Part shown: piece after piece, positions 1,867-26,182 of the stretch
Position numbering within the stretch: the stretch's first letter is position 1
Layout: the number at the start of each line of letters is the position of its first letter
IMG/VR virus record: IMGVR_UViG_3300032240_000554
Span: 1-28,683 of that record
From: a virus
Strand: one strand, 5' to 3'
DNA length: 28,683 bases
Notes under the pieces: model-generated
The model's input: the letters and a program-made list of their open reading frames with translations, nothing else
The model's database searches: none
Told to the model about the DNA's origin: nothing
Made by a program: the position numbers and the translations under genes

Positions 1867-2097
1867 ATGACTAAAGAAAAAATTACCGTTACATTTGCTC
1901 CTGGTTCTCTTGATAGCTTTGATGGCACACAAGAAGAACTTGACGAAATGATTGCTGAAATCACACGTATGGCCCAAAGCGGCGAACTGTTTGAACAGAG
2001 TCAAACAGTTGACTTTGATGAGCTAATGGAATTAGATCCAGAATATGCTGAAAAAATTCTCAATGCCGAAAGCACAGCAACTCGTCTATTACAATGA
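1867..2097 (+). CDS. Small acidic hypothetical protein
   Basis: A 76-aa acidic protein. It has a short beta-like start (KITVTFAPGSLDSFDG) followed by two predicted helices, the first around EELDEMIAEITRMAQSGELF. It overlaps the next gene by 4 bases (ATGA), a standard translational-coupling arrangement. I do not recognise a characterised family. Similar short acidic proteins are common in the early region of T4-like phages. Confidence 0.62.
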   Translation: MTKEKITVTFAPGSLDSFDGTQEELDEMIAEITRMAQSGELFEQSQTVDFDELMELDPEYAEKILNAESTATRLLQ

Positions 2098-2627
2098 TCT
2101 CAAAAAGTCCTGAACGTCATACCTTCCAAGCGGAGAATTACATTAAACGCTGTGAAGAAAAGGGCGAAGAACCTAACGAAGATTACTTAAACTTGTTTAA
2201 GTCTTATCGCCAGCAGGACGAGGAAAACATGGTCAATCCTGAATGGCAAAAGGACAATATGGAGTATGACCTACGTAGCACTGACTGGATATTAGAAAAA
2301 ACTCGTACTAGTGATTCCTACGCACAAAATCTATATGCCGCAATGTGTAACATGCAGTTTATTAAACTTGATGTTATGCCTATTCTAAAAAATCAACGCT
2401 GGAGTTGTAGTTGGAGGCATGCCGGTGGTATTGTTGCTGACATGCGTGAACAAGGTGATTACATGGACTGGTATTGTAGTGGCATAAATGGCAGTTATGA
2501 CTACTCCGAAGGCCAGCAACAACTAGATCAAAGAGGGTATGTTCCCGAAGGATTTGTCACAGATGAAATCCGGGAAGACCTAAAAAAGCTAGGATGGGCC
2601 GCTGTTGAATGGGAAGACGACGAATAA
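2094..2627 (+). CDS. Conserved phage hypothetical protein
   Basis: A 177-aa protein coupled to the upstream gene by a 4-base ATGA overlap. The N-terminal half is helical and charged. The middle contains AAMCNMQFIKLDVMPILKNQRWSCSWRHAGGIVADMR, and the C-terminal half is Tyr/Gly-rich (DYMDWYCSGINGSYDY) before an acidic tail. The RWSCSWRHAGGIVADMR part suggests a folded enzyme or binding core, but no catalytic signature is recognisable. It is the last gene before the terminator/promoter composite at 2644-2683, so it probably ends the first transcription unit. Confidence 0.65.
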   Translation: MISKSPERHTFQAENYIKRCEEKGEEPNEDYLNLFKSYRQQDEENMVNPEWQKDNMEYDLRSTDWILEKTRTSDSYAQNLYAAMCNMQFIKLDVMPILKNQRWSCSWRHAGGIVADMREQGDYMDWYCSGINGSYDYSEGQQQLDQRGYVPEGFVTDEIREDLKKLGWAAVEWEDDE

Positions 2628-2643
2628 ATCTGGATAATTTGGT

Positions 2644-2673
2644 AAAACCGGGTGTTGACAAGCCCGGTTTTTT
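2644..2673 (+). terminator. Rho-independent terminator with a -35 box in its loop
   Basis: A perfect 9-bp stem (AAAACCGGG at 2644-2652 with CCCGGTTTT at 2663-2671) closes a 10-base loop and runs into T residues up to 2673. It sits 17 bases after the stop of the 177-aa gene. The loop contains TTGACA (2655-2660), the -35 element of the promoter described next, so the terminator and the promoter share bases. Confidence 0.8.
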
Positions 2674-2683
2674 CATGTATAAT
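2655..2683 (+). promoter_or_regulatory. Consensus sigma70-type promoter nested in a terminator
   Basis: TTGACA (2655-2660) and TATAAT (2678-2683) are both perfect consensus hexamers and are separated by 17 bases. The start site should fall near 2690. That leaves a leader of about 25 bases containing AAGGAG (2702-2707) before the ATG at 2715. The promoter should drive the 392-aa gene and the kinase gene. Confidence 0.85.
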
Positions 2684-2714
2684 ATATACATATTGAACAC
2701 TAAGGAGCACTTAA

Positions 2715-3893
2715 ATGGCAACTAAAGCACTTACAGCGGCACGTACTCGCGCAAAAGCAGATCCTACACCAAAATGGGACGGAGCAGAAACATGGACTGG
2801 TGAACAATTTAGTTCACACTATCGCGATTCTATGAAGTATTACAACATGGAATCCAGCGGTAAAGAGCTCAAACCCAAAGTTATCGACTGGATGGGTCGT
2901 AACAGTTACAGTAGAGATGCTATTTCTTCTTTTAAGAAGACCAAAGACTGGCGTTGTAATACCACAATGGGTGCTGTTGCCGCTAACTTGATCAAAGGCA
3001 TGCCCGAAGTTCATGCTGGATTTAACAATGGCAAGAGTACAGCAGAGTGGTTGCGTAAAGAAATTGCCACTGTAATCGAAGATGGCAAATACGATATTGA
3101 AACTGTTGTAGTTGACACCAAAGCCGCAAAAGTCGCAGTTGTTGCTCCTCCTAACATTCAAGATCGTTTGCGTGAAACCGCAGGCGGTATGAGCGAAGAA
3201 CTGGATGCGGCTATTGATGCGTGGATTATGGATCCAGAATCTTTTAATCCCAAGGACATTAAAGTTGTCAACTTGCTCAAAGGCAAGGGTGCCAAGGCTG
3301 CTCACGCTCGAATGATCAAAGGTTACTTCCAACGTAACTACGACGAGCTGTTGGAACTTGCCAGTGGTAATGCAGACGAACAGTTGCGCGAAGCCTACAG
3401 TAAAAACAGCCGTAAGAATGTTAAAAAGTTAATTGAGTTTTACGAAAGCATTATGTCTGCTTGTGAACAGATTGCCGCAGAAGCTAAAGTTCTTAAGAAG
3501 CCACGTGCCAAGAAGGTCAAGCCAGCAGAACAGATTGTTGCTAAACTCAAGTTCTTGTTGAGCGATACTAAACTTGGTATTACAAGTGCCCCTCCTGCTA
3601 CCATTATTGGAGCAAGCGGTGTGGTTGTTTACAATGTAAAAACTCGTAAGGTTGGTTATTATATTGCTACTACCAGTGCCGGTCTTGGTGTAAAAGGTAC
3701 ATCGTTGACAGACTTTACTGATAAGAGTACACAAAAGACTCTGCGTAAGCCTCCAGAACAGATCAAAGAGTTCAAAGAGCAGAATACGCAAAAACGTTTT
3801 GAGACTTGGTTTGCCAAGAGTGTTAAGACCACAGAGACCTTGCTTAACGGCCGATTTAATGAAGATACTGTTATTCTCAAGGTGTACAAATAA
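2715..3893 (+). CDS. Conserved T4-like phage protein of unknown function
   Basis: A 392-aa protein behind its own strong promoter and a good ribosome-binding site (AAGGAG, 7 bases upstream). The N-terminal third contains W/Y-rich helical segments (WTGEQFSSHYRDSMKYYN; IDWMGRNSYSRDAISSFKK). A helical, Lys-rich middle (about residues 200-275) includes an AKVLKKPRAKKVKPAEQ linker. The C-terminal third has small beta-like segments (GASGVVVYNVKTRKVGYYIAT) and a final helix-strand. No membrane helix or known catalytic motif is visible. The basic linker and lack of a signal sequence fit a cytoplasmic or virion-internal nucleic-acid-associated protein. I think it belongs to a conserved T4-like family but cannot assign a function. 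Confidence 0.7.
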   Translation: MATKALTAARTRAKADPTPKWDGAETWTGEQFSSHYRDSMKYYNMESSGKELKPKVIDWMGRNSYSRDAISSFKKTKDWRCNTTMGAVAANLIKGMPEVHAGFNNGKSTAEWLRKEIATVIEDGKYDIETVVVDTKAAKVAVVAPPNIQDRLRETAGGMSEELDAAIDAWIMDPESFNPKDIKVVNLLKGKGAKAAHARMIKGYFQRNYDELLELASGNADEQLREAYSKNSRKNVKKLIEFYESIMSACEQIAAEAKVLKKPRAKKVKPAEQIVAKLKFLLSDTKLGITSAPPATIIGASGVVVYNVKTRKVGYYIATTSAGLGVKGTSLTDFTDKSTQKTLRKPPEQIKEFKEQNTQKRFETWFAKSVKTTETLLNGRFNEDTVILKVYK

Positions 3894-3895
3894 CA

Positions 3896-4372
3896 ATGCC
3901 TAAATGTTATCAATTGATTGGAGTGCCGGCTAGTGGAAAAAGTACCTGGTACAAAAATCAAGACTGGCTAGTTGAGGACAAAAAGGATCACAAGTATGTA
4001 TCTACTGATCAGCATGTTGAAGGATATGCTCTTGATCAAGGTAAGACTTATAGTGAAGTCTTTGATGAGTACATGCCTACTGCCGTTAAGCAAATGATGG
4101 TGAATGTGAACTTTGCCGCGGCATTGAAAATTGACATTGTTTGGGATCAAACCAGTACCACCATAGCAAGCAGGGCTCGCAAGTTTAATGCATTACCCGA
4201 ATACGAACATATTGCTGTGGTATTCCGTACTCCGGATCGTTCGGAATTGGATGTAAGATTATCAGGACGTCCGGGTAAACACATTCCTAAGAACGTGATT
4301 GACAGCATGATTGCTGGTTGGGAAGAACCCTCACTGGAAGAAGGATTTAAAGAAATTTGGTACGCTGTTTGA
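3896..4372 (+). CDS. P-loop polynucleotide-kinase-like protein (kinase domain only)
   Basis: This 158-aa AAA_33-type kinase would transfer a phosphate from ATP, most likely to a nucleic-acid 5' end. Walker A is GVPASGKST (residues 9-17). A second block (STDQHVEG, about 37-44) is in the position of the substrate-binding Asp of T4 Pnkp. DQTSTTIASRARKF (about 82-95) parallels the T4 segment that follows the kinase core strand. RLSGRPGKHIPKNVIDSM resembles the T4 region of the phosphate-contacting lid arginine. The length equals the T4 Pnkp kinase domain alone; the C-terminal HAD phosphatase domain is absent. The gene starts 2 bases after the upstream stop. A nucleoside or small-molecule kinase is the main alternative. 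Confidence 0.75.
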   Translation: MPKCYQLIGVPASGKSTWYKNQDWLVEDKKDHKYVSTDQHVEGYALDQGKTYSEVFDEYMPTAVKQMMVNVNFAAALKIDIVWDQTSTTIASRARKFNALPEYEHIAVVFRTPDRSELDVRLSGRPGKHIPKNVIDSMIAGWEEPSLEEGFKEIWYAV

Positions 4373-4397
4373 CAGACTATGTATAGTCTGTTATAAT
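4369..4397 (+). promoter_or_regulatory. Consensus sigma70-type promoter with a palindromic spacer
   Basis: TTGACA (4369-4374) and TATAAT (4392-4397) are perfect consensus with a 17-base spacer. The spacer is almost entirely an 8-bp inverted repeat (ACAGACTA 4372-4379 and TAGTCTGT 4384-4391) around TGTA. It could be an operator or a weak terminator hairpin for the kinase gene, whose last codons overlap the -35 box. The predicted start near 4404 leaves a short leader with AAAGAAAG before the ATG at 4421. Confidence 0.82.
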
Positions 4398-6739: not shown

Positions 6740-6775
6740 ACTCCTTAAGTAGATTAAATATTTTACTTAAGGAGT
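6740..6775 (+). promoter_or_regulatory. RBS-sequestering hairpin with an internal late-promoter-like element
   Basis: A perfect 12-bp inverted repeat (6740-6751 with 6764-6775) closes a 12-base loop. Its 3' arm contains AAGGAG (6769-6774), the ribosome-binding site for the ATG at 6781. ATTAAATA (6753-6760; 6 of 8 matches to TATAAATA) lies at the loop. A T4-type late start would fall at about 6766, inside the 3' arm. Read-through RNA would fold and hide the site, whereas late RNA would lack the 5' arm and be open. Confidence 0.7.
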
Positions 6776-6780
6776 TCATT

Positions 6781-7095
6781 ATGGCATCAAAATTAAACAT
6801 CATTAAACAATCTATTGGCAAATTAAACATCGAAAGAAAACTCTGGCTAGCACTTAGCGGATTGGTAGTTGCCGCATCTTTTGTATTATTCCTAGGATGG
6901 AATTCTATACAGGTAAATCATCTTCAATGGGTTTTTGTAACTTTAGGAATTACCGTATCTATGATATGGTGGTTTTGGACTATGCGTCTAATTCGTATAA
7001 TTTTAAACCATCGTCTTACTGAAGTTGAGATATTACAAGAAATCGTCAACGACATTAAAGACATAAAAATTAATGTTGCCAATCTTAACAAATAA
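6781..7095 (+). CDS. Two-helix membrane protein, possible holin-like
   Basis: A 104-aa protein with a basic N-terminus and two predicted transmembrane helices (about residues 21-42 and 47-68) joined by a short loop. A charged C-terminal helix follows (LTEVEILQEIVNDIKDIKINVANL). The size, two helices and charged ends suit a small inner-membrane protein such as a holin or an accessory lysis protein. No lysis gene is adjacent, so this is only a suggestion. The hairpin just upstream would restrict translation to late transcripts. The N-terminus carries a local duplication (KLNI...GKLNIERK). Confidence 0.68.
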   Translation: MASKLNIIKQSIGKLNIERKLWLALSGLVVAASFVLFLGWNSIQVNHLQWVFVTLGITVSMIWWFWTMRLIRIILNHRLTEVEILQEIVNDIKDIKINVANLNK

Positions 7096-25488: not shown

Positions 25489-25875
25489 ATGTCAAAAATC
25501 AAAGGTAAACTCATTCCTTTACGTGATAGAATTTTTGTCAGCGACATGGATTTTGGCATGGAAAAAACTATTGGTGGAATTTTACTTCACTCTGATGATG
25601 GTAAAAGTACAGGTATTCATCCTAGGTGGGGCAAGGTTTGGGCAATTGGTCCAACTAACACCTCTGGAGTAACCATCGGAGAGTGGGTTCTTATTGAGCA
25701 CGGAAGATGGACAAGAGGCATGGAATACGAAAACGATGACGGGTCTATTACCAAACTTCGTGTAGTTGATAACAATGCTATTCTCATGGCGGCTCCTGAA
25801 AAACCAGAAGGTGCTATGAGAAGCGAAGTAGTAGGTGCCGGGTCTAATTTTAATTTTAATATTCCCGGTTTATAA
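25489..25875 (+). CDS. GroES/gp31-like co-chaperonin
   Basis: A 128-aa co-chaperonin of the GroES fold. KLIPLRDRIFV near the N-terminus is the family's opening strand. IGGILLHSDDGKSTG is the mobile-loop region that contacts GroEL. GKVWAIGP, GEWVLIEHGRW and LRVVDNNAIL are the core barrel strands. Length and the long C-terminal extension are nearer T4 gp31 than host GroES (about 97 aa). It likely replaces GroES with host GroEL so that large capsid or fibre proteins can fold. The stop codon lies within a near-perfect hairpin (25857-25892). Confidence 0.88.
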   Translation: MSKIKGKLIPLRDRIFVSDMDFGMEKTIGGILLHSDDGKSTGIHPRWGKVWAIGPTNTSGVTIGEWVLIEHGRWTRGMEYENDDGSITKLRVVDNNAILMAAPEKPEGAMRSEVVGAGSNFNFNIPGL

Positions 25876-25892
25876 AATAAACGGGAATATTA
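25857..25892 (+). other. Hairpin over the co-chaperonin stop codon
   Basis: TAATATTCCC at 25857-25866 pairs with GGGAATATTA at 25883-25892, and the inner GTTTAT/ATAAAC arms also pair with a single G bulge, giving roughly a 16-bp stem around a short A-rich loop. The stop codon TAA (25873-25875) lies near the loop. There is no T-tract after it. It is 5 bases from the real terminator hairpin and may stabilise the mRNA end. Confidence 0.6.
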
Positions 25893-25897
25893 ACTCC

Positions 25898-25927
25898 ATA
25901 GGGCCTTGACAGGCCCTATTGTTTTTT
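25898..25927 (+). terminator. Rho-independent terminator whose loop is a -35 box
   Basis: ATAGGGCC (25898-25905) pairs with GGCCCTAT (25912-25919) with no mismatch. The 6-base loop is exactly TTGACA (25906-25911). A T-tract (TGTTTTTT, 25920-25927) follows. It ends the co-chaperonin transcription unit, and the loop doubles as the next promoter's -35. Confidence 0.85.
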
Positions 25928-25934
25928 GTACAAT
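25906..25934 (+). promoter_or_regulatory. Sigma70-type promoter nested in a terminator
   Basis: TTGACA (25906-25911) is perfect and TACAAT (25929-25934) differs by one base; the spacer is 17 bases and includes the hairpin's right arm and T-tract. The start site should lie around 25940, which is also the ATG of the next gene. There is no Shine-Dalgarno in between. It would drive the gene run up to the clamp loader. Confidence 0.8.
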
Positions 25935-25939
25935 AATAT

Positions 25940-26182
25940 ATGGGACATAAAAAACAAATAGATGTAGCAGATGTTGTTAGACAGATTAATGCCGCTGCCT
26001 ACGAATGTACTAGTCCTTATAATGACGGGTTTGTTGGATGGGGTTATAAACAAGATCTTTACAGGATTAAATGGATTTTGGAAGATGCTCTTAAACGATG
26101 CCCAATATATTCTCCGGAGCCAGAATGGATACGAGAACAAGAAAAACAAAAACTTGTTAGGATACTAAAAGATGAAATGTAA
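25940..26182 (+). CDS. Conserved small phage protein, possibly leaderless
   Basis: An 80-aa protein with helices IDVADVVRQINAAAYEC, then CTSPYNDGFVGWGYKQDLYRIKWILEDAL, and a basic C-terminus (REQEKQKLVRILKDEM). The TSPYNDGF-GW-YKQDLYR-KW pattern is a familiar small phage family without known function. The ATG at 25940 is 6 bases after the -10 hexamer, so the mRNA may start at it. No Shine-Dalgarno is present and no other in-frame ATG is better. It overlaps the next gene by 11 bases. Confidence 0.66.
   Translation: MGHKKQIDVADVVRQINAAAYECTSPYNDGFVGWGYKQDLYRIKWILEDALKRCPIYSPEPEWIREQEKQKLVRILKDEM

Follow-up and report, generated by a model that had tools for sequence, protein, structure and literature searches.

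PeSLs (promoter early stem-loops) are composite promoter-terminator motifs of T4-like phages and have been proposed to act as shared sequence for gene swapping. They were reportedly described by Arbiol and colleagues in 2010 and by Comeau and colleagues in 2014, as 'Composite conserved promoter-terminator motifs'. When the order of parts was read from the sequence of phage RB49, 12 of its 30 strong terminators (throughout this work, a stem of at least 7 bp with at least 4 GC pairs, at most 1 G-U pair and 6 T in 8 bases) had a promoter after the stem, and in 11 of these 12 the -35 box lay 12-32 nt past it. An inverted-repeat TATA motif of the haloarchaeal virus HGTV-1 has been likened to PeSLs (PMC3950731); the likeness described is that many genes are preceded by a promoter-like box and an inverted repeat, the promoter being of the archaeal type. 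A possible link between the two halves of such elements comes from work on post-termination recycling. According to the accessible sections of PMC6978380, E. coli RNA polymerase stays on the DNA after termination and restarts at a nearby promoter in vitro, restart following 37% of terminations and 55% when sigma70 is added. This work supplies a mechanism for restart; the same sections deal with separate terminators and promoters in vitro and describe no nested case, and recycling is said there, as in the corresponding part of PMC11347151, to lack a demonstration in vivo.

The elements described here share with PeSLs the union of a sigma70-type promoter and an intrinsic terminator in a small intergenic cassette of a T4-like phage, placed between co-directional genes and followed by variable genes. 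They differ from the RB49 elements in that the -35 box lies in the hairpin loop and the T-run in the spacer, whereas the RB49 -35 box lies past the stem; the RB49-type order (stem-loop, T-run, then -35 box) was found in none of the 72 strong terminators of the window and its relatives. Composite promoter-terminators as a kind are already known, and it is the nested geometry that differs. A -35 box in a terminator loop was not found described in the literature searched; the original PeSL papers lay outside this search, and the geometry is not claimed to be unpublished.

The stretch analysed (the window, 28,683 bases) is an IMG/VR virus record. Its genes encode an AAA clamp-loader-like protein, a protein with weak similarity to gp31/GroES, UvdE and collagen-like tail fibres, the latter with long Gly-X-Y repeats at 13.2-22.7 kb. 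T4-type replication and assembly genes place the window, a genome fragment, among the T4-like phages (Straboviridae/Kyanoviridae-type). Matches to the clamp-loader-like protein are present in 2658 phage records, including Escherichia and Synechococcus T4-types and PA5oct, and by this protein the nearest named phages are PA5oct-like Pseudomonas phages (54.6%). A megablast search of window positions 1-25000 against named phages and an Rfam search of the window gave no match.

The original prediction of a hairpin with a TTGACA loop, a T-tract and a TATAAT hexamer at a spacing of 17 bases at 2644-2683 proved exact in every part (Table 1). The stem comprises 9 bp, and the promoter agrees with the consensus at 12 of 12 positions with a spacer of 17, which makes it a strong sigma70-like promoter as in a PeSL. 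A GC-rich hairpin directly followed by a T-run is the make-up of an intrinsic terminator; the RNA fold of 2637-2676 has an energy of -17.4 kcal/mol (z -3.57, equalled in 4 of 200 shuffles), and from structure and T-run the stem-loop is a putative effective terminator. The same prediction had taken this site as the second copy of a composite with TTGACA in the loop at both places. A composite is indeed present at 25898, with the structure ATAGGGCCT-TGAC-AGGCCCTAT (-14.5 kcal/mol, z -3.59), and, as had been claimed, the two stems are unrelated in sequence; we are therefore dealing with the recurrence of a design and not with a duplication. TTGACA lies wholly in the loop only at 2644, while at 25898 the stem takes its first T and its last A, and the -10 hexamer is TACAAT. 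Both hairpins lie between co-directional genes, and they are the only strong terminators on the plus strand of the window.

Table 1. Features of the two nested elements and their surroundings (positions in the window).
Feature	Position	Strand	Basis
Upstream ORF, 177 aa; stop 16 nt 5' of hairpin	2094..2627	+	ORF list
Left arm of terminator stem, AAAACCGGG	2644..2652	+	sequence + RNA fold
Hairpin loop, TGTTGACAAG	2653-2662	+	sequence
-35 hexamer TTGACA, within hairpin loop	2655..2660	+	sequence, promoter match
Right arm of terminator stem, CCCGGTTTT	2663..2671	+	sequence + RNA fold
T-run (six T) of terminator, within -35/-10 spacer	2668..2673	+	sequence
-10 hexamer TATAAT, spacer 17	2678..2683	+	sequence, promoter match
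AAGGAG, probable Shine-Dalgarno of 2715 gene	2702..2707	+	sequence
Gene 3' of 2644 element, 392 aa, phrog_11903 (family of unknown function)	2715..3893	+	E 1.4e-60
gp31-like gene 5' of 25898 copy, weakly similar to GroES co-chaperonin and head morphogenesis families	25489..25875	+	
Left arm, ATAGGGCCT; its final T also opens TTGACA	25898..25906	+	sequence + RNA fold
-35 hexamer TTGACA, TGAC as loop	25906..25911	+	sequence
Right arm, AGGCCCTAT, starting with last A of TTGACA	25911..25919	+	sequence
TGTTTTTT directly after right arm	25920-25927	+	sequence
-10 hexamer TACAAT, spacer 17	25929..25934	+	sequence
80-aa gene, ATG 5 nt past -10, probable leaderless mRNA	25940..26182	+	
Inverted-repeat carriers upstream of 25940-type gene: L144, L151, L154, L160, L179, L180, L189, L191			

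The 177-aa ORF gave no PHROG or Pfam family, and for the 80-aa gene neither a PHROG family nor a match among named phages was found. The -10 hexamer at 2644 sits in a short AT palindrome, ATGTATAATATATACAT (2675-2691), and cyanophages S-BM3 and S-CAM9 carry a near-identical string after a terminator and before CobS. Just 5' of the 25898 composite, an inverted repeat, TTAATATTCCCG...CGGGAATATTAA (25858-25894), covers the gp31-like gene's stop codon and has no T-run.

We consider it likely, with a probability of roughly 80%, that the element is a selected nested intrinsic terminator-promoter which insulates co-directional transcription units. The parts, their fixed register, their recurrence, the co-variation of the 25898 stem and the placement between co-directional genes can be read directly from the sequence; from these we infer termination, initiation by a host-type sigma70 holoenzyme and independence of the units as the purpose, and the module would then separate transcription units as originally proposed.

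Recurrence was first assessed in relatives of the window. A protein search with the product of the 2715 gene gave 34 loci, 13 of their contigs entered a promoter pattern search and 12 of these 13 were used, without G009 and with parts of G001, G005, G006, G012 and G013 missing; together with the window they amount to 1.135 Mb. A composite was defined as a promoter with at least 10 of 12 matches whose -35 box overlaps the hairpin loop by at least 3 bases. By this definition 14 of 72 strong terminators are composites. Around the loop starts, from -80 to +160, there are 17 promoters, and 15 of them are placed at -5 to +9. Against the preferred reading, 58 of the 72 strong terminators have no nested promoter and 185 of 196 strong promoters no nested terminator. 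With overlaps kept, the real sequence held 73 strong terminators and 14 composites; 28 dinucleotide-shuffled versions of the 1.135 Mb averaged 16.4 strong terminators and contained no composite. A wider search of IMG/VR with the pattern GGGNC-TTGACA-GNCCC gave at least 120 stretches, with 98 distinct ones among the matches listed. Among these 98, a -10 hexamer of at least 5/6 stands at a spacing of 16-18 in 62 (57 of them at 17), a T-run follows in 61, and both are present in 56. With the hexamer reversed (ACAGTT) in the same stem, IMG/VR yielded 85 stretches, 70 of them distinct, and -10 hexamer, T-run and the combination were each found in 0 of 70. When TTT was added to the pattern (GGGNC-TTGACA-GNCCCTTT), a -10 hexamer accompanied 24 of 26 viral but 1 of 26 bacterial and archaeal matches, the cellular comparison covering 84,980 species of bacteria and archaea with one genome each. 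The relatives and the viral sets include near relatives, and their counts are thus not independent events.

These figures bear on the simplest objection, namely that two common signals, a GC-rich stem with a T-run and TTGACA/TATAAT, overlap by accident. TTGACA as such is indeed no commoner in the window than chance would have it (25 copies, 20.97 expected). Nevertheless, accident is extremely improbable and is refuted for the class of composites by the shuffles, by the mirrored loop (56/98 among the matches listed against 0/70) and by the viral-bacterial comparison. A scan for hairpins with TTGACA loops had been suggested along with the prediction; among the 25 copies of the window, only those at 2655 and 25906 lie within a stem of at least 6 bp, in both cases one of 9 bp. 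Taken together, the comparisons indicate that the nested architecture recurs far above chance, as predicted, and that the design is kept by evolution in a set of phage lineages.

Conservation of the architecture had been claimed as well, with the expectation that relatives keep the loop while the stem bases co-vary and with loss of stem or loop in alignments named as the outcome that would speak against it. At 25898 the expectation is borne out. For the 80-aa gene, 160 IMG/VR relatives were found; the best 80 of 160 gave 53 distinct upstream regions, and 16 composite-bearing regions including the window were aligned. L165, which passes a loose hairpin test and has no T-run, and L210, a composite, are absent from this alignment, and L134, L190 and L208 were excluded as spurious promoter calls. 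Across the 16 sequences the loop TGAC is invariant, the nine stem pairs are paired in 93.1% of 144 cells, and 4 pairs and 10 cells are changed on both sides; controls in which the partner was shifted by 1 to 3 columns reached no more than 1 pair and 2 cells. In the IMG/VR pattern, too, the free inner N-N pair is Watson-Crick in 48 of the 56 composites among the matches listed (with 6 further G-U pairs), compared with 19 of 42 non-composite matches listed and 21 of 69 controls. At 2644 it was the outcome named as contrary that we found. For the 2715 gene, 33 loci and the window supplied 26 distinct upstream regions. All of these have a sigma70-type promoter with a spacer of 17; the terminator is confined to the window and L027, so that 24 of the 25 other regions have the promoter without it. 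A conserved promoter thus gains or loses a terminator at this site. The L027 stem, AAAACCGGAT/ATCCGGTTTT, differs from that of the window by one pair (G-C to A-T). A sequence resembling the left arm, TTGGTAAAACC, is retained in L012, L013, L015, L016, L028 and L032, and hairpins of 5-8 bp over the -35 box and without T-run occur in L005, L010, L012, L014 and L015. The string TTGGTAAAACC or close variants are also found in many promoter spacers (G002 198-207 kb and other contigs), and it precedes the 2644 stem.

The behaviour of the stems is equally relevant to the idea of an operator, in which a protein would bind the inverted repeat over the -35 box and the T-run would be incidental. Dyads without a T-run do lie in the spacer of other promoters (at window position 4369 and in L006, L016 and L036). 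A sequence-specific operator should, however, not have stems that differ between copies and co-vary between orthologues, and a T-run follows 61 of the 98 IMG/VR hairpins among the matches listed; we have rejected this reading as improbable on both grounds. Slightly less improbable, though still unlikely, is a recombination cassette, in which shared sequence for gene swapping would be the main role and regulation secondary. It would fit with near-identical pairs of composites within one contig (G002 60381/126650, G011 4558/47645) and with the genes found next to composites. Among 74 IMG/VR composites listed (not de-duplicated), 37 lie close to recognisable relatives of window genes, often with a gp31-like gene upstream, and 37 have no such neighbour; the first recognised gene 3' of the composite varies downstream of the gp31-like gene, with the clamp loader in 13 cases, the 80-aa gene in 7 and a CTP-transferase-like gene in 6. 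Against it, the two copies of the window share no stem sequence and the stems co-vary, which makes them poorly suited for homologous exchange. Insulation by a nested terminator-promoter remains the reading that we prefer.

Named phages were scanned with promoters of at least 9/12 accepted. A -35 box in the loop was found for 1 of 8 strong terminators in Streptomyces phage Jada (AAAACCCGGTGTT-GACAA-AGCACCGGGTTTT, -10 TATACT), for 2 of 54 in PA5oct (one clear case at 186478) and for 3 of 15 in the first 100 of 169 kb of cyanophage S-BM3. There was none among 30 strong terminators in 150 of 164 kb of RB49, 61 in the whole record of KVP40 and 15 in two pieces of T5 (95 of 122 kb), and two candidate promoters examined in Syn9 had no nested terminator. 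S-BM3 carries the element at 35923-35951 of its record (minus strand; terminator GAGGGGT-TTGACC-ACCCCTC), and Jada in the region of 92578. For L242, a composite contig without window-like neighbours, the matches include the cyanophages S-SM2 and Bellamy. Two candidates were discarded: a 28-base match in S-BM3 that covers the tail of the right arm, the T-run and the -10 hexamer, with a loop TTGTAA that is a weak -35 box, and the Vibrio T5-like phage VCPH, where a -10 hexamer just after the terminator T-run has no good -35 box in the loop.

In all 16 aligned 25898-type composites an ATG stands 5-6 nt past the -10 hexamer, the start site being predicted from the promoter. If transcription starts at the usual distance, the transcript would be too short ahead of the ATG to hold a Shine-Dalgarno sequence, and the mRNA of the 25940 gene is therefore probably leaderless. 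The 2644 copy, where the ATG follows the -10 hexamer by 31 nt, is unlike this type. More widely, the first start codon (ORF of at least 40 aa; a few TTG or GTG) lies 5-9 nt past the -10 hexamer in 34 of 64 IMG/VR composite contexts (6 at 5, 17 at 6 and 11 at 9 nt) versus 27 of 185 strong promoters without nested terminator in the 1.135 Mb, which is an indication only because the searches differ. In 8 of 14 terminator-less relatives of the 25940 site, by our reading (Table 1), a 6-11 bp inverted repeat brackets the -10 hexamer; its arms change together, as in AAAGCCCATG-12 nt-CATGGGCTTT and ATCCCATG-12 nt-CATGGGAT, and the right arm contains the start codon. In RNA that reads through from upstream, this repeat could mask the start codon; alternatively, it could be an operator.

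A polymerase finishing the upstream gene would transcribe the hairpin and the U-run and leave the template a few bases 5' of the -10 hexamer, about 15 bp short of the next start. As a duplex, the same DNA would be a sigma70-type promoter, with the loop as the -35 box and the T-run as most of the spacer, and the next transcript would begin about 7 nt past the -10 hexamer. With terminator and promoter in the same ~40 bp, one stretch would close one co-directional unit and open the next. Since the loop bases need not pair and the spacer needs no particular sequence, superposing the two signals costs little, which is the simplest reason for the nested design. The consensus sigma70-type promoters suggest that the phages concerned use the host polymerase, unlike lytic phages with a polymerase of their own, which are argued to gain little from recycling (PMC11347151; some authors are shared with the recycling study cited above).

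A more far-reaching combination of ideas is tentative and, as a whole, rather doubtful. It holds that a released polymerase would already be on the promoter that it uses next and would be passed from unit to unit, that a polymerase waiting at the promoter would act as a road-block and help termination, and that the 25898 terminator would guard a leaderless gene against read-through. The start-codon inverted repeat would hide the ATG in read-through RNA but leave it exposed in transcripts that begin at the promoter, so that terminator and repeat would be two different ways of insulating the same leaderless gene. If polymerase is indeed passed on by nested elements, post-termination recycling could be tested on a natural system encoded in the genome. 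Terminator and promoter can evidently be superposed base for base, and several phage lineages appear to keep the superposition. The design gives a small building block for insulated units, and in uncultured phages it is an easily recognised mark of unit borders and leaderless starts.

Other dyads were seen as well. At 4369-4397 of the window, a consensus promoter has a dyad as its spacer, the hairpin standing between the -35 and -10 boxes without a T-run, and RB49 carries similar dyad-spacer consensus promoters, likewise without T-run, at 115005, 117381, 121708 and 134521 on the minus strand; the spacers read TGACAGACTA-TGTA-TAGTCTGTTA and GGGGATCGGTGATCCCC. Finally, a near-perfect 14-bp hairpin, ACTCCTTAAGTAGA...TTTACTTAAGGAGT, occupies 6740-6775 of the window just 5' of the ORF at 6781, and its stem includes the AAGGAG of that gene.
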